Below, piece after piece: positions 23,231-38,540 of a stretch of DNA of 38,540 nucleotides. Below the pieces are notes generated by a model. The model made no database searches. It worked only from the letters and a program-made list of their open reading frames with translations, and had not been told where the DNA came from. The stretch comes from Bacillus sp. J33 (lineage in GTDB: Bacteria; Bacillota; Bacilli; Bacillales; Cytobacillaceae), in assembly GCF_000518885.1 (NCBI RefSeq), contig NZ_JAEL01000004.1, forward strand, positions 1-38,540. Reading direction: 5' to 3'. Positions within the stretch are counted from its first letter, which is position 1, and every line of letters starts with the position of its first letter. Made by a program: the position numbers and the translations under genes.

Positions 23231-23745
23231 GCTAATCCTTCTTAATAATTACTATCTTCCCTCCCGCTCTTCATATTTGGTCGTTATACCTGCTGATTAA
23301 CTACCATATTCTTTCCCACTCCCCATTTTGGTCACTAACCGTTCTTAATAACTACCATTTTCTCCCCTACTCTCCACTTTTGGCCGTTATTCCTTCTGTT
23401 TAACTTCCATTCTCTCTACCTCTCTCCACTATTGGTCGTTAACCCTCTGATTAACTATCATTTTCCCTCCTTCTCCCTACTTTTGGGCGTTATTCCTGCT
23501 GATTAACTACCATTTGACCTCCTTCTCCCTACTTTTGGGCGTTATTCCTGCTGATTAACTACCATTTTCCTCACTCTCCCTACTTTTGGCCGTTATTCCT
23601 GCTGATTAACTACCATTTGACCTCCTTCTCTCCACTTTTGGTTGTTAATTCTGCTGATTAACTACCAAAACTTCCCCTCCTTCCCTTTTTTGGTCCTTAA
23701 GCCCTCTCTTTAAATCATTTATCCTTTCCTTCTCAGCCTTAGGTC
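23231..23745 (-). repeat. Tandem array of ten ~52-bp units carrying ribosome-site/mini-ORF cassettes
   Basis: Units begin near 23231, 23282, 23333, 23385, 23437, 23488, 23540, 23591, 23642 and 23694; spacing alternates 51 and 52. Units 6-8 are nearly identical and the outer ones are diverged. The minus strand of most units reads AGGAGG-like purines, 4-8 bases, then ATG-GTA-GTT-AAT-CAG-CAG-GAA-TAA (M-V-V-N-Q-Q-E-stop); for example ATG at 23513 to TAA at 23490. Variants start with TTG (unit 9) or have other codons. The array fills most of the 841-base gap between the BenE-like gene and the RND pump; the remainder (23746-23972) holds only a small GAGACA/TGTCTC stem. Confidence 0.85.
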
Positions 23746-23972: not shown

Positions 23973-26900
23973 ATGAAGTTATTAAAATTGGTTGTACAGA
24001 GAAAAATCCTGGTGGGACTAATGACCGTATTGATTTTGGCCATCGGCAGCTTTTCTATTTTTGAATTGGATAAAGAGCTGATGCCGCCGGTTACGATGGA
24101 CGGCGCTTATGTAGAGGTCAGTGCCGGTGAAATGGCGGCAATAGAAGTGGAGCGATCGATCACCACCCCCTTGGAGCAGCAAATCAGGGGGATTGATGGA
24201 GTAGAAAAAATCGACTCAACAACAACCATTGGGCGAAGCTCCTTTCAAATTACATTTGAACAGGGCAAGGGCGATGACCTTTTTAAAGAGGTAGAATCTA
24301 TTGCAAATGCGGCTAAGGGGGAAAATACAGCCATCACTGATGTCACTTCAGGTCAGTATGGAACTGCTCAAAGCTATGAATTTTACATGGATGTATCTGG
24401 CGGAAGCATGGAGGAAATGACTGATTTTGCAAAAAATGTCCTCGAACCGCGTTTGGAAGCATTAGATGAAGTCCGTGACGTATCGCTTGCAGGCGTTCAG
24501 GAACATGAAGTGACAATCGAAATGGACCGCAGCAAAATAGCGGAAAAAGGGCTGGATGCCACAGCCGTAATGGGTGCAATCCAGCAGGTAAACAGCGAGG
24601 CAACACTTGGGGAACTGAGCAGTGATTCCAACTCTCCTTCCCTCCGCTGGAACACGAAATTGGAAAACGTGGAGGATGTAAAAAATATTAAAATTCCTTC
24701 ACAAGGAGGATACATTGATTTAAAAGAAGTGGCAGATGTTTCACTTCAGCCGCTTGAAAGCTCATCCTTTGTTTGGAAAAACGGCACAAAAGATTTTATT
24801 TTTGTCCAGGCAGGACGTGCTGCAGATGCCACACAAATTGAGATGGCAGCAGCCGTACGCGATGAAATTAAAAACATTCGTGAAGATGGTTTAGTAAAAG
24901 GCTTTGAATTAAATGAAATGGTCGCCCAGGCTGATTACGTCCAGGAATCGATTGATGGGGTGACCGGCAATATCCTGATTGGCGGCATTATCGCAATTGC
25001 GATCCTGATCGTTTTCCTAAGAAATCTAAGGGCTACCTTTATCATCGGCTTGTCGATACCAACCTCGATTCTTCTGACATTTACAGCGATGTGGGTGTTT
25101 GATTACAGCTTTAACATCCTGACCCTGATTGGTTTAGGTCTTGGAATTGGTATGATGGTCGATTCCTCTATTGTTATATTGGAATCCATTTACCGAAAGA
25201 AAGAGCAGGGCTTTGGCAAGCTGGAATCAGTATTGGAAGGAACAAAGGAAGTGGCATCAGCTGTTATTGCATCCATGCTGACGACGATTGTGGTCTTTCT
25301 TCCGATCGGGCTGATTGGCGGCGATGTCGGAATATTTATGATTATGCTGACAGCAGTTGTCGCGATTACTTTGATCAGCTCTGTAGTCATTTCGTTCACA
25401 CTGATTCCGTCTCTTTCTGAAAAATTGCTAAAGCTCCGCAAACCGGAGAAAGAGAGCAAAGAAGGACCTTTCATGCGCCTGTATAGCCGTACCGTTGCAT
25501 GGACCGTAAAGAAAAAACGATACAGCTTTGCTGTCATTGCCGTCTTTTTCCTGCTGTTTGCCGGCTCTTTAACACTTGTGACAAAAATCCCAATGACCAT
25601 TATGCCGGATGTTTTCAATCGGTATACCGAGCTGATGGTTGACCTGGAATCTGGAGTTTCTGCTAAAGATAAAGAAGCCATTGCACAGGGGATCCATAAA
25701 AAACTGCAATCCATTGAAGATGTAGAGTCCAATTATGTCATGGATAATGGCGGCATGTTTTACACCATTATCAACATGACAAAGGGCGAAGATATCACAA
25801 GGGAGCAAAAAGAAATAAACGAAGACATTATGAGGGAACTCCGCGGCTTGTCGGATACGCTTCCCGTTGAAAATGTCCAGAGCGCCATGTCAAGCGGCGG
25901 GGGTTCTCAAATCCAGGTGAATATTAAGGGTGAGGAATTTGCAGATTTGCAGGCGCTTGCCGGCGATTTCTCCAAAAAACTTGAAGGCATCGATGGGATT
26001 GCTGGTATTGCAAATTCGATGGAACGCACTTCCGAGGAGCAGGTTATTGTTCTAAAGGAAAAAAAGATTGAAAAAGCAGGACTGACACAGCCGCAAATCA
26101 AACAGTTTATCGAACAGGCCTTCCTGCAAATGCCTATCGGTGAAGTGACTATAAATGATGAAAATATGCCGCTAGCTTTGAAATGGGCTGAAAAGACAGA
26201 TTCCCAAACCGCTTTATTGGATTTAAGAGTCCCAACAGCTGATGGAGAAAAACCTTTATCTTCTTTTATTAAATTGAATCGTGTTAATGCACCAAATGAA
26301 ATTTCGCACAGTGATGGAGAGCGATTTATCTCGATTTCTGCGGATATAGAGGGAAAGGACCTTGGTGCCATTAACCGTGATGTCCAAAAGCTCATCAGCG
26401 ATTTTGAAGCACCTGCTGGCTATACAGTCTCCGTTGCCGGTGATCTAGAGCAGCAGCAGGAATTGATCATGGATATGGCGTTTGTGTTAGCCATTGCCAT
26501 TTTCCTAGTGTACTTGGTGATGGCGGTCCAGTTTAACCATCTCGGCCACCCGCTGATCGTCATGTCTGTCATCCCAATGACAATTGTGGGCGTTATTCTT
26601 GGCTTGTTCATAACGCAAATGGAGCTTAGTGTTATGTCAGGTATGGGTATCGTAATGCTGATAGGCATTGTGCTAAACAACGCCATATTGCTGATCGACC
26701 GGACGAAACAGCTCCGTGCAGAAGGCTTATCTGTGGAAGACTCCCTATTGGAGGCTGGAAAAAACCGGATCCGCCCGATCTTTATGACGACGCTGACTAC
26801 AGCTGGCGGAATGCTTCCTTTAGCCTTAGCATCCGGAACATCAGGCAACTATCAGGCACCAATGGCAACTGTCATTATTTCCGGACTGCTATTCGCAACC

Positions 26901-27032
26901 TTTATCACACTCCTGCTGATTCCGGCAGTATACCGCTTGTTCACTACCTCCAGCCTTCGTTTCGGGTGGCTAAAGAAGAAGCGAAAAAAAGAACATGACG
27001 ATGTAAAAGCAATTCCTGATACAGTGAAATAA
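23973..27032 (+). CDS. swrC: RND-family efflux pump, SwrC-like
   Basis: A 1019-residue RND transporter with the usual layout: TM1 (10-30), a large extracytoplasmic loop (about 33-335), TM2-6 (338-480), TM7 (about 515-540), a second loop (to about 830) and TM8-12. Length and a Gram-positive host fit B. subtilis SwrC (surfactin resistance). TM4 reads G-M-M-V-D-S-S-I-V-I: the first Asp of the AcrB proton pair is kept, the second is Ser. TM10 reads L-N-N-A-I-L-L where AcrB has the lysine. R-P-I-F-M-T-T in TM11 is kept. No adaptor or regulator gene adjoins it. AAGGAG precedes the ATG. Confidence 0.88.
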   Translation: MKLLKLVVQRKILVGLMTVLILAIGSFSIFELDKELMPPVTMDGAYVEVSAGEMAAIEVERSITTPLEQQIRGIDGVEKIDSTTTIGRSSFQITFEQGKGDDLFKEVESIANAAKGENTAITDVTSGQYGTAQSYEFYMDVSGGSMEEMTDFAKNVLEPRLEALDEVRDVSLAGVQEHEVTIEMDRSKIAEKGLDATAVMGAIQQVNSEATLGELSSDSNSPSLRWNTKLENVEDVKNIKIPSQGGYIDLKEVADVSLQPLESSSFVWKNGTKDFIFVQAGRAADATQIEMAAAVRDEIKNIREDGLVKGFELNEMVAQADYVQESIDGVTGNILIGGIIAIAILIVFLRNLRATFIIGLSIPTSILLTFTAMWVFDYSFNILTLIGLGLGIGMMVDSSIVILESIYRKKEQGFGKLESVLEGTKEVASAVIASMLTTIVVFLPIGLIGGDVGIFMIMLTAVVAITLISSVVISFTLIPSLSEKLLKLRKPEKESKEGPFMRLYSRTVAWTVKKKRYSFAVIAVFFLLFAGSLTLVTKIPMTIMPDVFNRYTELMVDLESGVSAKDKEAIAQGIHKKLQSIEDVESNYVMDNGGMFYTIINMTKGEDITREQKEINEDIMRELRGLSDTLPVENVQSAMSSGGGSQIQVNIKGEEFADLQALAGDFSKKLEGIDGIAGIANSMERTSEEQVIVLKEKKIEKAGLTQPQIKQFIEQAFLQMPIGEVTINDENMPLALKWAEKTDSQTALLDLRVPTADGEKPLSSFIKLNRVNAPNEISHSDGERFISISADIEGKDLGAINRDVQKLISDFEAPAGYTVSVAGDLEQQQELIMDMAFVLAIAIFLVYLVMAVQFNHLGHPLIVMSVIPMTIVGVILGLFITQMELSVMSGMGIVMLIGIVLNNAILLIDRTKQLRAEGLSVEDSLLEAGKNRIRPIFMTTLTTAGGMLPLALASGTSGNYQAPMATVIISGLLFATFITLLLIPAVYRLFTTSSLRFGWLKKKRKKEHDDVKAIPDTVK

Positions 27033-27043
27033 TCCTTTTCAGT

Positions 27044-27077
27044 CCCCCCTCTATGCTGAGGGGGCATTATTTTTTTA
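27044..27077 (+). terminator. Terminator of the RND pump gene
   Basis: CCCCCTC and GAGGGGG (27045-27051, 27058-27064) with a 6-base loop, followed by CATTATTTTTTT. Confidence 0.88.
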
Positions 27078-27175
27078 GGCATGCGCGGATGTTTCAAGCA
27101 CTAGGGACAAGGACTCTTCCCTTCTGATTTTCCAATCATATATTGATAGCAATTAATAGGAAAGGAGTGAATCTT

Positions 27176-27415
27176 ATGTGCCACAATTGTATTGAAAAAA
27201 AGATAATCTGCTGTATAAAGAAGGACAAACATCACTGCTCTTGCAAAAAATGCTTCCCTGATTTCCATCACTGTTCATGTAAAAGATGCTTCCCTGATTT
27301 CCATCACTGCTCTTGCAAAAGATGCTTCCCTGATTTCCACCACTGCTCTTGCAAAAAATGCTCCCTTGACTTTCACCATTCCTTTCATAAGAAGTGCTCA
27401 TGCCACTGCTGCTAG
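27176..27415 (+). CDS. Cys/His-rich 12-residue-repeat protein, putative metal binder
   Basis: Seventy-nine residues, of which 20 are Cys and 13 His. After a head with C-x-x-C and C-C pairs (residues 2-13), four tandem 12-residue units (19-66) follow the pattern H-H-C-S-C-K-K/R-C-F-P-D-F. A degenerate fifth unit ends in C-S-C-H-C-C. Each unit offers C-x-C-x-x-C plus two His, a plausible Zn/Cu/Fe site. Repeats are also 36-bp repeats in the DNA. AAAGGAGTG seven bases before ATG 27176 sets the start. A very strong terminator follows. Not recognised: it could be metallothionein-like, a spore-coat component, or a precursor peptide. No signal peptide. Confidence 0.75.
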   Translation: MCHNCIEKKIICCIKKDKHHCSCKKCFPDFHHCSCKRCFPDFHHCSCKRCFPDFHHCSCKKCSLDFHHSFHKKCSCHCC

Positions 27416-27433: not shown

Positions 27434-27468
27434 ATCAAAAAAAGCAGGGGCCCCCTGCTTTTTTTGAT
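27434..27468 (+). terminator. Terminator with 17-bp arms
   Basis: ATCAAAAAAAGCAGGGG (27434-27450) and its exact complement (27452-27468) flank a single C. The G-C core and the run of seven T make an efficient terminator for the Cys/His-rich gene. The last two bases abut the repeat element that follows. Confidence 0.92.
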
Positions 27469-27699
27469 AAGGCTCTTTTCGTAAGGTTTGTTGCTATTTG
27501 AAGGCGAACGCAGTTTACCCAACTGAGCTGATTGCAGCGGAGGGCACTTAACTCCTGCTCAGAAAAGAGGTAAGCGGAAGACCCCGCAGGAAAAGCCGGG
27601 GAGGCTCGCATCGCTCCTTCGCGGAAAGCAAGTGTCCCGTGCTGAAATCAACGGACAAAATTGATAAACTAAAACAACAATCTATGCGAAAGGAGCCTT
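27469..27699 (+). repeat. MITE-like interspersed repeat, longest copy
   Basis: Terminal inverted repeats AAGGCTCTTTTCG (27469-27481) and CGAAAGGAGCCTT (27687-27699) match in 12 of 13 positions. The interior includes GTTTGTTGCTATT, GCGGAAGACCCCGCAGGAAA and GAAATCAACGGACAAA. Related copies lie at 3129-3287 (inverted) and 6295-6377 (deleted). It has no coding capacity. It occupies most of the 325-base gap before the GtrA gene. Confidence 0.8.
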
Positions 27700-27740
27700 T
27701 GACAAAATCCTTTTCGATCGCGCTGCATATCCTGCTGCAG

Positions 27741-28175
27741 TTATTTAAAAACAAAATATTTCTGGCCAATATAATTGGTTAATGTGTAAAAAGCTGCCCC
27801 CATTAAAACGGCAAGCTCCTCCCGGGAAAGATCATACCCGGCAAAAATAAGGTCCTGAATATTGCCGGCAGCCAAACGGCCTATTGTATAAGAAAGAAAG
27901 TAGCAAAATATAACGACAGCCAGAAAACGGACAGCACTTTTTGGAATGCTTGCTTTGCTTTGGAAAGTAAAAGTCCTATTAAGAAAATAGCTGATGGCAG
28001 CTCCCGTGCTATTGCCGATAAAAGTTGCTGCCCAGTAAGACATTCCAAGCAAATTTAAAAGAGCAAACATAATGGATAGGCCTGCCAGCGTATTGACTGC
28101 CCCAACAAGCATAAAACGAATAATGGTATTAGTTCGTTTCAGATAATTTCCTGAAATTAATGTTCGTGAACTCAT
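27741..28175 (-). CDS. GtrA-family membrane protein (putative polyprenyl-phosphate-sugar flippase)
   Basis: A 144-residue protein with four predicted membrane helices and the GtrA features F-M-L-V-G-A-V-N-T (about 20-28), S-Y-F-L-N-R-T-F-T-F near 63-72 and a C-terminal Y-F-V-F-K. GtrA proteins are thought to flip undecaprenyl-phosphate sugars across the membrane for glycosylation of teichoic acids or other polymers. Two ATG codons compete; the CGGAGG site is eight bases from the second (28175). The gene overlaps the end of the GT2 gene by 47 bases, so the two are coupled. Confidence 0.87.
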   Translation of the reverse strand: MSSRTLISGNYLKRTNTIIRFMLVGAVNTLAGLSIMFALLNLLGMSYWAATFIGNSTGAAISYFLNRTFTFQSKASIPKSAVRFLAVVIFCYFLSYTIGRLAAGNIQDLIFAGYDLSREELAVLMGAAFYTLTNYIGQKYFVFK

Positions 28176-29166
28176 TTTCATTGCCTCCGTCAGAAATCAG
28201 CTGCCGGGATACAGGCAAACTAAAACCATCAATTTCAACTGAAAATTTAGGTCTCCGTTTTGTTTCCTTATAAATTTTCCCAATGTATTCTCCCACCAGG
28301 CCAATCGCCGTCAGCTGAAGCCCCCCAAGCATCCAGATGGAGGTGATTAAAGAGGTCCAGCCTGTCTCTGTTTCACCAAAAAACCGCAGCCCAAGGAAGT
28401 AGATGCCAAATAAAAGACTAACAAAAAATGAGCTGATCCCTAATGCCATGACCATCCGAATCGGTGTAACAGAAAAAGAGGTAATTCCTTCAAAGCTAAA
28501 GGCAAGCATCTTCTTTAGCGGATACTTGGATTCCCCTGCAAGCCTTTCTTTACGGTCATAGTACACATTGGCTGTTTTAAACCCAAGCAGAGGCACAATC
28601 CCGCGCAGGAACAGATTTGCCTCCTCATATCGCTGCAGCTCTTCCAATGCACGCTTGCCCATCAGCCGGAAATCTGCATGGTTATAAACAAGATCGACTC
28701 CCATCTTCTTCATTAACTTATAAAAGCCCTGGGCAGTGCTTCTTTTGAAAATGGTATCCGCATCCCGGTTTCTCCTAACCCCATAGACTATTTCATATCC
28801 TTCCCGGAATTTCAGGATAAACTCCCGGATTACTCCTATATCGTCCTGCAAATCGGCATCGATGGAAACCGCACAGTCTGAAACCTTTTCTGCAGCTGTC
28901 AGACCGGCAAGCAGGGCATTCTGGTGACCCACATTTTTGGCAAGTTTTATTCCCCTTACCTTATCGTTATTTAAGCTTTGTCTGTATATGATCTGCCAGG
29001 TCTGGTCCTTGCTTCCATCATCCACAAACAGAATCTTGCTTTTATCTGAAATTAAATCGTCTTGCACAAGCTCATCCAGCAAATAGCTCAGCTGATGAAC
29101 GGTTTCCGGCAGTACCTCCTCTTCGTTAAAGCAAGGAACCACGATGGTAAGTACTGGGTTGTTCAT
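28129..29166 (-). CDS. GT2 polyprenyl-phosphate glycosyltransferase (CsbB/YkoT-like)
   Basis: A 345-residue enzyme with a GT-A catalytic domain: V-V-P-C-F-N-E-E-E-V near residues 9-18, F-V-D-D-G-S-K-D near 47-54, and the D-x-D site S-I-D-A-D-L-Q-D-D near 98-106. R-L-M-G-K-R-A follows, and two C-terminal membrane helices (about 235-260 and 270-295) anchor it. The class moves a sugar from UDP-sugar to undecaprenyl phosphate on the inner face of the membrane. An AGGAGG site seven bases before 29166 decides the start; the frame itself opens 52 codons earlier inside the preceding gene. It is the middle gene of a three-gene operon. Confidence 0.88.
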   Translation of the reverse strand: MNNPVLTIVVPCFNEEEVLPETVHQLSYLLDELVQDDLISDKSKILFVDDGSKDQTWQIIYRQSLNNDKVRGIKLAKNVGHQNALLAGLTAAEKVSDCAVSIDADLQDDIGVIREFILKFREGYEIVYGVRRNRDADTIFKRSTAQGFYKLMKKMGVDLVYNHADFRLMGKRALEELQRYEEANLFLRGIVPLLGFKTANVYYDRKERLAGESKYPLKKMLAFSFEGITSFSVTPIRMVMALGISSFFVSLLFGIYFLGLRFFGETETGWTSLITSIWMLGGLQLTAIGLVGEYIGKIYKETKRRPKFSVEIDGFSLPVSRQLISDGGNENEFTNINFRKLSETN

Positions 29167-29182
29167 TCTATTTCCTCCTGCA

Positions 29183-30862
29183 TTATATGGCTTTATAAAG
29201 GTAGATTTTCCAGACAGAGCTTTTTGATTCAAAAACCTTCTCAAGCCGAAGCCTATTATCCCCCGCATTATCGATCGGAACGGATGAAAAAATATAGGAG
29301 CCGCCCATGGCTTTGAATGCATCTGTATTCAGTTCAAGATTTTCCAATCTTTTCTTAGTCCGCTTTTTAAACATATAATGCTTTCCCAGCTCGTCCGTAA
29401 ATACATAGCATCTTCCGCCCCATTCATCAAAATATTCGCGGATTCTTTTGTTCTTTTCCAGTTCTTTTTCAATGATTTTCCGAAATTGATATTTGTATGT
29501 TAAGGGATAAAAATTATTATACGTATCTAAAGTATAGAAGCCATTATACTGGGCAATGGCAGGGTGAAGGCCTATGCTTGCAACACGGTATTCCTCCTGC
29601 GGGACCCCAATGTATTCCTTAATATCCGAGAACTGCTCTTCTGCGTAAAATTGCCTGACAGTAGGCTTATCTTGGAAAAGAATTTCCTCGTTAAAAAAGG
29701 AAGCCACAAACACTTGAGCCAGCAAAAAAACGGGAACCAGCCGCCTCCAAAACAAATCGCTGGACCAAATGATCTTCAAAGACAAGGCAAAGAGAACATA
29801 AATAATCAGCGGCCTTAAAAAGTGATACCTGGCAAAGTTGAACGTATCAAGTACATGAAAACGCTCTGTCAGCGGCAGCCAGCCTTTGTAAAACCAGAAG
29901 GCATACCATGCCGACAAGGCAAAGTTTAAGACAAACAGGAACAAAAACACTTTTTCATTTTTCCAGCTCTTTTGCCTGATGATCATAAAAAGGGCCACAA
30001 ACATAAGCGGCAGGATAACCAGGGTGTGGATCGTAGCAGCATGGTGGTGTCCTATAGCAAAGTTTTTAAAGGTTAAGCGGACACAATGCCAAAAGGTTAA
30101 CCTGGCATGGAAATATTCATCACGGCTGTTGGGTTCATCATCAAACAGAAAGGAATAAACAAGCCGGTATTCCACGATAAGAAATATCCCGGTCATATAG
30201 GCGATCGAAAGCAGAAAAGGCCAATTCCATTTTCGCTTCCTGATCACATCTGTCAGCCAGAAGATCCCCATCGCGCTCAGGAAAAAGAAAAATCCCAGGA
30301 CAATGCTCGCATACAGGGGCAATAGTGTTAGGACAAGAATGTTTTTCCAGGACCTTTCCCCTTGCCTTATATTTAAAAAAGCCCAAAGTGCAAGCGGCAT
30401 TCCTAGCGTGCTCAGCATACCGGAAGGCCAGAAAGGAGTGAAGGCAAATGCCAGAGCTGTCCCGATCGTTATAGGCGCCCATTTCTCCTCTTTAAGAAAA
30501 TGCTTTTTCAAAAGCAAATACATGCCGATAAAAGCAAACACCCTTGTAATCGTCTGGCTTAGAGCATAGGCCATCATCGTTGGAAAGAGTGCATATAGCC
30601 AAACAATTAAGGTAAATTCAGAGCCAAATGCATTTCGGGACAGATTACCGTTTATAATTTGCGGAATAGCCGCATCAATCGGCCCTGTCAGCTGGCCGCT
30701 CTCGGCAAGAACTTTATACCATGCAAGATTGGAATCCAAATTATCATGTACGCGAATATGTGCATTTTCACCTAATAGGTATAGCGGGGACACGAACAAA
30801 GCCAAAGCAATAAAGGCTAAGACAAGGAGTTTTTTCTCGGCTGTTATTTTTTTCAAAAGCAA
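29183..30862 (-). CDS. DUF6044/YkoS-like multi-pass membrane protein, likely GT-C glycosyltransferase
   Basis: A 559-residue protein with about 11-12 membrane helices and a soluble C-terminal part (about 415-559). H-D-N-L-D-S-N-L (about residues 39-46) in the first outside loop is acidic, as in the catalytic first loop of GT-C enzymes, and resembles the H-D-x-x-D of YkoS/YfhO-type proteins. With the GT2 and GtrA genes it would transfer the flipped sugar to an acceptor polymer outside the cell. Start is TTG at 30862, six bases after AGAGGTG. First gene of the operon, 16 bases before the GT2 start. Confidence 0.8.
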   Translation of the reverse strand: MLLKKITAEKKLLVLAFIALALFVSPLYLLGENAHIRVHDNLDSNLAWYKVLAESGQLTGPIDAAIPQIINGNLSRNAFGSEFTLIVWLYALFPTMMAYALSQTITRVFAFIGMYLLLKKHFLKEEKWAPITIGTALAFAFTPFWPSGMLSTLGMPLALWAFLNIRQGERSWKNILVLTLLPLYASIVLGFFFFLSAMGIFWLTDVIRKRKWNWPFLLSIAYMTGIFLIVEYRLVYSFLFDDEPNSRDEYFHARLTFWHCVRLTFKNFAIGHHHAATIHTLVILPLMFVALFMIIRQKSWKNEKVFLFLFVLNFALSAWYAFWFYKGWLPLTERFHVLDTFNFARYHFLRPLIIYVLFALSLKIIWSSDLFWRRLVPVFLLAQVFVASFFNEEILFQDKPTVRQFYAEEQFSDIKEYIGVPQEEYRVASIGLHPAIAQYNGFYTLDTYNNFYPLTYKYQFRKIIEKELEKNKRIREYFDEWGGRCYVFTDELGKHYMFKKRTKKRLENLELNTDAFKAMGGSYIFSSVPIDNAGDNRLRLEKVFESKSSVWKIYLYKAI

Positions 30863-31057
30863 TCTTTACACCTCTAGGTTCAAGATTATTTACAGATTAG
30901 GGTTTACGAACATTTGCAAAATATTCCTAAACAGCCATTCCAAGATGATAAAGGGGATAATACAACCTTCCGGCAACATAAAAATAAAGAGAAACCGCAT
31001 ATAGGCCTGTGGATGAATTCAAAGAAAAGTGCTCAAGAAACAGCTTGGGGGGATATT

Positions 31058-31918
31058 ATGATTAAAAAAGCGGTCATACCTGCTGCAGGACTTGGAACGC
31101 GCTTCCTGCCGGCTACAAAGGCCCAGCCTAAGGAAATGCTCCCAATTGTCGACAAGCCAGCCATTCAATATATTGTGGAAGAAGCCATCGCTTCAGGGAT
31201 CGAGGATATCATCATCATAACCGGCAGGAACAAAAGAGCCATTGAAGACCATTTTGATAAATCGGTTGAAATGGAGTTATTGCTTCAGAAAAATGGAAAG
31301 GTCAAGATGCTTGAGGAAATACGTGAAATTTCGAATTTGGCCGATATCCATTATGTCAGGCAAAAGGAGCCGCTCGGACTGGGGCATGCCATTTTATGCG
31401 CCAAAAAATTCATTGGCAGCCAGCCTTTTGCCGTCCTTCTTGGGGATGACATCATTGATGCCGAAAAGCCTGCTTTGCTTCAAATGATCGAGCAGTATAA
31501 CAAAATGGGTACGAGTATTCTCGGGTGCGATGAGGTGCCAATTTCTGAAGTAAATAAGTATGGGATCGTCGGATACTCAGAGCAGCGGGAGGAATTATAT
31601 AAGGTTGATAGCCTTGTGGAAAAACCGCCTATTGAAAAAGCCCCATCTGCCCATGCCATTATTGGCCGTTATATCCTAACCCCGGCTATTTTTGAAATGC
31701 TTGAAAACAGCAAGCCTGACAGCAAAGGAGAATGGCAGCTGACAGATGCGCTTCATGCATTGCTCGGCCGTGAGAGAATCTATTCCTATTTAATTAAAGG
31801 CAATCGTTATGATACTGGGGATAAATTCGGTTTTTTAAAAGCCTCGATCGATTTCGCCCTGCAGAGGCCAGAGCTAAAAGAAAAGCTATTACTATATTTA
31901 AAGCAAATTCATCAATAA
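31058..31918 (+). CDS. galU: UTP--glucose-1-phosphate uridylyltransferase
   Basis: A 286-residue enzyme that makes UDP-glucose from UTP and glucose-1-phosphate. The nucleotide-binding start P-A-A-G-L-G-T-R-F-L-P-A-T-K-A is at residues 8-22, with G-L-G-H-A near 105-109 and the metal-binding L-L-G-D-D near 128-132. V-E-K-P and G-R-Y-I-L-T-P follow as usual (GtaB/GalU). GGGGGG five bases before ATG 31058 decides the start; the frame opens earlier. It is divergent from the glycosylation operon, to which it can supply UDP-glucose. Its 3' end overlaps a galE remnant by 21 bases. Confidence 0.93.
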   Translation: MIKKAVIPAAGLGTRFLPATKAQPKEMLPIVDKPAIQYIVEEAIASGIEDIIIITGRNKRAIEDHFDKSVEMELLLQKNGKVKMLEEIREISNLADIHYVRQKEPLGLGHAILCAKKFIGSQPFAVLLGDDIIDAEKPALLQMIEQYNKMGTSILGCDEVPISEVNKYGIVGYSEQREELYKVDSLVEKPPIEKAPSAHAIIGRYILTPAIFEMLENSKPDSKGEWQLTDALHALLGRERIYSYLIKGNRYDTGDKFGFLKASIDFALQRPELKEKLLLYLKQIHQ

Positions 31919-38297: not shown

Positions 38298-38540
38298 CTA
38301 TGAAGACTTTTTTCGCTTATCGGATTTATTTGGGGAGCCATGAAGGGTTTAAGAAGATCTTTTTTCGCTCTCTGATTCCATTTGTGGCTTCATGAACTCT
38401 TCATGGCTACCTTTTTCTGCTCTTGGATTTCATTTCCGGCTTCATGGGCCTTTCATGGCGACCTTTTTTTGCTCTCGGATTTCATTTCCGGCTTCATGGG
38501 CTCTTCATGGCTACCTTTTTTCGCTCTCGGATACGATTTG
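38298..38540 (-). repeat. 52-bp tandem repeat array, running off the window
   Basis: Units at 38388-38439, 38440-38491 and 38492 onward are 52 bp and nearly identical; 38336-38387 is diverged and 38298-38335 is shortened. The minus strand reads CATGAAGCCGGAAATGAAATCC..., AAAAAGGTAGCCATGAAGAG. Its blocks CATGA, CGGAAAT, GGTCGC/GGTAGC, ATG and AGAGTT occupy the same positions as in the 52-bp unit at 1-104. Confidence 0.9.

Follow-up and report, generated by a model that had tools for sequence, protein, structure and literature searches.

A short cysteine-repeat gene confined to part of the genus Cytobacillus encodes a candidate component of the spore surface

We describe a small, cysteine-rich repeat gene that is self-standing, under selection and limited to part of one genus, and whose product is probably a lineage-specific, disulfide-prone structural protein, made in the mother cell, of the outer layers of the spore (coat, crust or exosporium). 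The gene occupies positions 27176-27415 on the + strand of a 38,540-nucleotide stretch of the Bacillus sp. J33 genome, which at its full length we refer to as the window. Named relatives identify the host genus as Cytobacillus.

The open reading frame begins with an ATG and encodes 79 amino acids. Its translation bears out the 20 Cys and 13 His counted in an earlier note on this DNA and adds 13 Lys; Cys makes up about a quarter of the protein and Lys about a sixth. A tandem array at 27230-27374 (+ strand), delineated by TRF (period 36, 4.0 copies, 88% matches) and by comparison of the units, comprises four 36-bp copies, each encoding one C-x-C-x-x-C unit. The description of these as four clean units followed by a partial fifth proved slightly generous, since HHCSCK(K/R)CFPDF is the sequence of three units and the fourth reads HHCSCKKCSLDF; the fifth is indeed degenerate, reading HHSFHKKCSCHC, and CSCHCC comes after it. 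Between units 2 and 3 there are three nucleotide substitutions, each of them synonymous, and 19 further genomes carry orthologues that share the start, the Cys spacing and the promoter, so that the frame is a real gene and not a product of chance.

As the earlier note had proposed, the gene has a ribosome-binding site and a terminator of its own. The sequence AAAGGAG (27161-27167, + strand) stands 8 nt before the ATG and is conserved across the orthologue alignment, and 3' of the stop codon a perfect inverted repeat at 27434-27468, to which we assign no strand, forms a hairpin with 17-bp arms and a 1-nt loop. A terminator consensus scan called this hairpin on the - strand only, probably because the T run of the + strand sits within the arm. 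The terminator scan also placed the terminator of the upstream RND gene at 27045-27064 (+ strand), between the RND and Cys units, and most of the aligned orthologues are preceded by a similar hairpin of G/C runs. With its own ribosome-binding site, its 3' hairpin and a terminator closing the RND gene, the Cys gene most likely constitutes a separate transcription unit. Just 3' of the terminator, positions 27474-27700 hold a dispersed repeat element with at least 43 matches in the same genome at 74-100% identity, a count obtained by scoring 40 of 260 first-look candidates and in which some matches are split pieces. The outer ends of this element seem by eye to be inversely repeated, repeat detection gave no such pair, and the element is absent at that place in five carriers compared. 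Elsewhere in the 38.5 kb, the tandem arrays at 1-109, 23232-23667 and 38359-38539 share a period of 52 bp, although their three sequences seem unrelated.

To establish the distribution of the gene, a profile was built from ten members and searched against 193 genomes. Orthologues were found in 20 of the 36 genomes of the genus and in none of the 157 others of the family, a single search recovering all 20 carriers with E values no higher than 0.001. Even sampling across the order gave matches in 3 of 397 genomes, each of them a member of the same genus. A single-sequence search of the genus, which at a threshold of E 0.1 matched 21 of 36 genomes, had given clear relatives in 16 other genomes (the weakest in G009, E 0.002), and three more orthologues (G015, G016 and G028) were read downstream of the orthologous RND pump. 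Named loci that match number twelve: six of C. firmus or C. oceanisediminis, one of Cytobacillus sp., two of Bacillus sp., and one each of Sporosarcina globispora DSM 4, Paenibacillus sp. and Pseudomonas sp., labels that may be outdated or wrong. A peptide-pattern scan of genome contigs with the window protein alone yielded no confirmed relative, whereas the profile of orthologues succeeded, and a plasmid collection contained no match to the Cys protein. Having neither a short Cys-repeat ORF nor profile support, the weak matches in G004, G011, G030 and G035 together with some second matches (E 0.003-0.1), the family-search matches outside the genus in G089, G133 and G183 (E 0.01) and three weak matches in the window's own genome were rejected.

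The 20 orthologues together hold 72 C-x-C-x-x-C motifs, from 1 to 8 per protein, in agreement with the earlier expectation that repeat number would vary between genomes. Successive motifs are separated by exactly 12 residues in 45 of 52 cases. A high and conserved Cys content is one mark of the spore-surface class, and here Cys accounts for 19.5-29.9% of residues in all 20 orthologues. In the alignment, conservation is highest in the 19 Cys-led columns (mean identity 94%), followed by the Lys-led (19 columns, 91%), the His-led (9 columns, 84%) and the remaining columns (75%), and Cys residues outside the repeats are conserved as well. HH, by contrast, precedes the first Cys in only 26 of the 72 motifs and is replaced elsewhere by PH, KR, KS, KH, HF, KK and others, so that the His-His pair is no fixed part of the unit. 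Of the Cys/His spacing looked for in homologues, the Cys motif and its 12-residue interval are therefore conserved and the His-His pair is not, and the proposal that C-x-C-x-x-C plus HH forms one metal site in every repeat finds no support across the family.

The same data bear on the reading of the protein as a metallothionein-like buffer, in which each C-x-C-x-x-C unit, together with His where it has one, would bind an ion of a soft metal (Zn, Cu or Cd) in sporulating or growing cells. The high Cys content, the C-x-C and C-x-x-C spacing, the richness in His and Lys and the nearly invariant Cys columns would all suit such a role, which we nevertheless judge unlikely, though worth weighing. 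Besides the poor retention of HH, the adjoining pump is of AcrB type and is not always present, and family searches gave the buffer no backing: with E values allowed up to 10, neither the window protein nor any of the 10 members scanned of the 20 matched a Pfam or NCBIfam family, which accords with the earlier remark that the protein belongs to no nameable family, and the sole match in a PDB sequence search of solved structures was a BUD31 homologue at E 4.8. Structure prediction from a nine-sequence alignment (mean pLDDT 49.9, pTM 0.30, 0 residues at 70 or above) gave a model too poor to weigh a metal-bound against a disulfide-bound fold. Metal binding, whether alone or on the spore, is possible and appears to be the weaker reading compared with a spore coat role.

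Among the 111 of 190 orthologue pairs with usable dS (above 0.05 and under 1.5, the other 79 being outside this range or not computable), dN/dS has a median of 0.13 and a highest value of 0.36, with none at or above 1. These pairs are not independent, and the window's gene takes part in just one of the 111, 18 of its 19 pairs being among those left out. For the pairs with usable dS, the Cys gene is under purifying selection. It is thus extremely improbable that the frame is a functionless, fast-evolving repeat which base composition and a 36-bp period keep free of stop codons. Such an origin could account for an antisense frame that is fully or nearly fully open in 6 of 20 copies (79 of 80 codons in the window's genome) and for the frame breaks in 2 of 20, but the low dN/dS, the conservation of start, ribosome-binding site and promoter words, and the conserved Cys outside the repeats argue against it. 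The antisense ORF itself was rejected as a gene, its full length not being open in 14 of the 20 copies. Frame breaks in close relatives, which the earlier note had counted against the gene, do occur in part: G005 is broken near the C-terminus and G009 within the repeats, where biological origin and assembly error are both possible, whereas the frames of G015, G016 and G028, whose pumps are nearest in identity, are intact.

In a tree of the pump protein from 17 genomes, three one-motif species branch outside a group that unites the window's genome with the other ten carriers in the tree (support 93/92, slightly below the program's mark of 95), and the branch of the window's genome is the longest among carriers. 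From this branching we infer that the array may have grown separately in the line of the window, with the FPDFHH version, and in the others, with the SDEHK version. A broader and speculative idea, which we consider rather unlikely, is that the unit was invented in one Cytobacillus branch as a counted cross-link or metal site, that slippage between 1 and 8 copies adjusts how densely the spore surface is cross-linked or how much metal it carries, and that branches amplified different versions (HHCSCKKCFPDF in the window's species and CSCKKCSDEHKH in others).

We also considered the genomic surroundings. Upstream, at 23973-27032 (+ strand), lies a gene for an RND pump of the AcrB/AcrD/AcrF family. 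A pump at least 84% identical over residues 1-1018 is encoded in 14 genomes, all 14 of which carry the Cys gene, and two further carriers, G008 (70%) and G009 (89%), have a partial pump; in carriers G005, G026, G031 and G034 no orthologous pump was found, and in G023, G030 and G033 the pump is 71-72% identical and the Cys gene is absent. These presence patterns make the pump a frequent neighbour rather than a needed partner, and a functional tie between the two was rejected because the gene is kept in four genomes without an orthologous pump found. Their retention of the gene likewise tells against the product being a small secreted or modified peptide (a bacteriocin or killing factor) or an accessory peptide of the adjacent pump, which we regard as very unlikely. 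The protein is small and Cys-rich and has a transporter gene alongside in 14 of 20 carriers, with a partial one in 2, but reading by eye revealed no hydrophobic signal peptide in the Cys protein, a terminator separates pump and Cys gene, and the next genes, encoding GtrA, a glycosyltransferase and DUF6044, include no maturase.

Synteny was assessed from sixteen neighbourhoods, one of which (L036) begins 170 bases before the gene and has its upstream side outside the sequence. Downstream of the Cys gene, a MerR-type gene is present in 16 of 16 neighbourhoods and a gene without Pfam match, presumably CBO0543-like, in 15 of 16, L045 being the one where it was not found; upstream, the gene that precedes the pump in the window, which we take to be xanthine-permease-like, occurs in 12 of 16. 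In the window, the CBO0543-like gene is separated from the Cys gene by a block at 27741-31918 with genes for GtrA, glycosyltransferase 2 and DUF6044 and a last gene that we assume to be GalU-like. This block was not found in the 16 fetched neighbourhoods, and GtrA and a glycosyltransferase are encoded downstream of the Cys gene in G015, G016 and G028.

Upstream of the gene lie two conserved words, GGACAAGG (27105-27112, + strand), whose letters we take to resemble the consensus of a SpoIIID site, and CATATATT (27137-27144, + strand), a putative -10-like element for a mother-cell sigma factor. GGACAA and CATATATT are invariant in the 20 aligned upstream sequences, and the spacing between them is 26 bases in 17 of 19 measured and 27 in 2 of 19; in G005 it is 26. 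Across the 36 genomes, the pattern GGACAAG-N{16,30}-CATATATT has 32 matches, made up of the 20 orthologues and 12 scattered sites, compared with 10 for the reversed control. Published work describes the SpoIIID motif as 8 bp long, with a first base that is almost exclusively G at strong sites (PMC517825), SpoIIID as auto-regulatory (PMC11736430), the -10 of a sigma-K promoter as CATATAAT, which CATATATT resembles, and the -10 elements of sigma-E and sigma-K as very similar, the -35 differing as ATA versus AC (PMC3789822). Neither the AC of sigma-K nor the ATA of sigma-E was seen by eye at the usual -35 distance in alignments of the orthologue upstream regions; activator-dependent promoters can be without a -35 (PMC7438776). 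In the window's own genome a looser form of the pair pattern gave 5 matches, one of them the Cys gene, against 11 for the reversed control, and genus-wide the 12 other matches are no commoner than the control, so that no regulon is seen; the roughly 300 bp preceding the genome's own cotD contain neither GGACAA nor GGACAG. As regards the mother-cell promoter, another mark of the spore-surface class, what was found is a SpoIIID-like box and a -10-like element at 20 of 20 orthologues, without a -35 and without a regulon. An imperfect AAGG-N7-CCTT dyad, noticed by eye in the upstream block, could be the operator of a metal regulator and would then favour metal buffering, against which stands a promoter that, judged from its words, looks specific to the mother cell.

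The SpoIIID-like word recurs upstream of spoIIID itself. Of 30 loci examined, from 36 genomes, 26 have GGACAAGG some 265-300 bp before spoIIID, on the strand opposite to that gene; two other loci (L103 and L104) have GGACAAGT at the same place and two (L122 and L126) have none. The background frequency of GGACAAGG, 24 in 500,210 strand positions or 0.038 per 400 bp, is an overestimate, since the sample includes 16 Cys-gene promoters. In the window's genome, the box of the Cys gene and the site upstream of spoIIID both read TAGGGACAAGG. Orientation is + strand at the Cys gene and - strand at spoIIID, and the spacing to the CATAT element differs. The SpoIIID-like box, the -10-like element and the recurrence of the box upstream of spoIIID lend sequence-level support to the link with sporulation suggested in the earlier note. 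All 36 genomes of the genus have spoIIID, including the 16 in which the Cys gene was not found, so that, going by its distribution, the Cys gene would not be required for sporulation in general. The region preceding spoIIID (L101 and L103-L131) also contains, about 260-300 bp from the gene, a conserved block CCTTGTCC...GTGCATAT, possibly an autoregulatory SpoIIID site.

On the reading as a spore outer-layer protein, transcription would start just below CATATATT, directed by one of the mother-cell sigma factors, sigma-E or sigma-K, and SpoIIID would act at GGACAAGG, about 26 nt above CATATATT, with activation perhaps more likely than repression. The protein would then join the forming coat, where its C-x-C-x-x-C units would fix it by intra- and interchain disulfides, possibly supplemented by Lys isopeptide links, and the number of units, from 1 to 8, would set the cross-link points offered per chain. 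Richness in Cys and Lys, together with the lack of a confidently predicted fold, agrees with a protein that cross-linking sets in place. The outer layers of spores consist in part of lineage-specific proteins overlooked by family models. The protein described here has an extreme Cys content and belongs to no named family, and because its repeat number varies naturally while its promoter is almost constant, the effect of cross-link number on properties of the spore shell is open to direct test. It also provides a candidate SpoIIID-dependent promoter outside Bacillus subtilis.

In order to place the protein among known systems, we compared it with four groups. SmtA-type bacterial metallothioneins are small and Cys-rich, with C-x-C and C-x-x-C spacing and some His; the Cys protein differs from them in its lack of a Pfam match, its open repeat number, its many Lys and its sporulation-like promoter, and no Pfam or NCBIfam model of bacterial metallothionein and no solved metallothionein matched it. 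CotY/CotZ of the Bacillus subtilis crust and ExsY of the Bacillus exosporium are larger and have a Pfam family of their own, whereas the Cytobacillus protein has no Pfam match, and no Pfam or NCBIfam model of this Cys-rich coat family was matched up to E = 10. What they have in common with it is richness in Cys, theirs being proteins of the spore surface. CotD (PF11122) is likewise short and His/Cys-bearing and is a spore coat protein, but the window's genome has a separate CotD gene (G000:C191), and neither the window protein nor any of the 10 members scanned matched PF11122; SpoIIID binding sites are reported for B. subtilis cotD (PMC517825). The fourth comparison is with CdeM and CdeC of the Clostridioides difficile exosporium, which are monocistronic, sigma-K controlled and repeat-bearing, with 8.7% and 9% Cys, respectively (PMC6101409), CdeM being given there as unique to C. 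difficile (PMC6101409; PMC7677010). Like them, the Cys protein is Cys-rich, has short Cys repeats, is most likely monocistronic and has a putative late mother-cell promoter; they differ in size (161 and 405 aa), in their Cys content of about 9% and in repeats that, as described, are not a 12-residue C-x-C-x-x-C unit. The same sources state that CotY/CotZ self-assemble in a manner favoured by disulfide cross-linking (PMC6101409) and that CotY/CotZ, ExsY, CdeC and CdeM are set by cross-links, or are thought to be (PMC6101409; PMC7677010). By analogy with these proteins, a coat role is the most likely reading of the Cys-repeat protein. The letters of its 12-residue unit were not found in the literature searched and the family appears to be undescribed in the searchable literature; it would be a new family among the small, lineage-specific, Cys-rich proteins of the spore surface.
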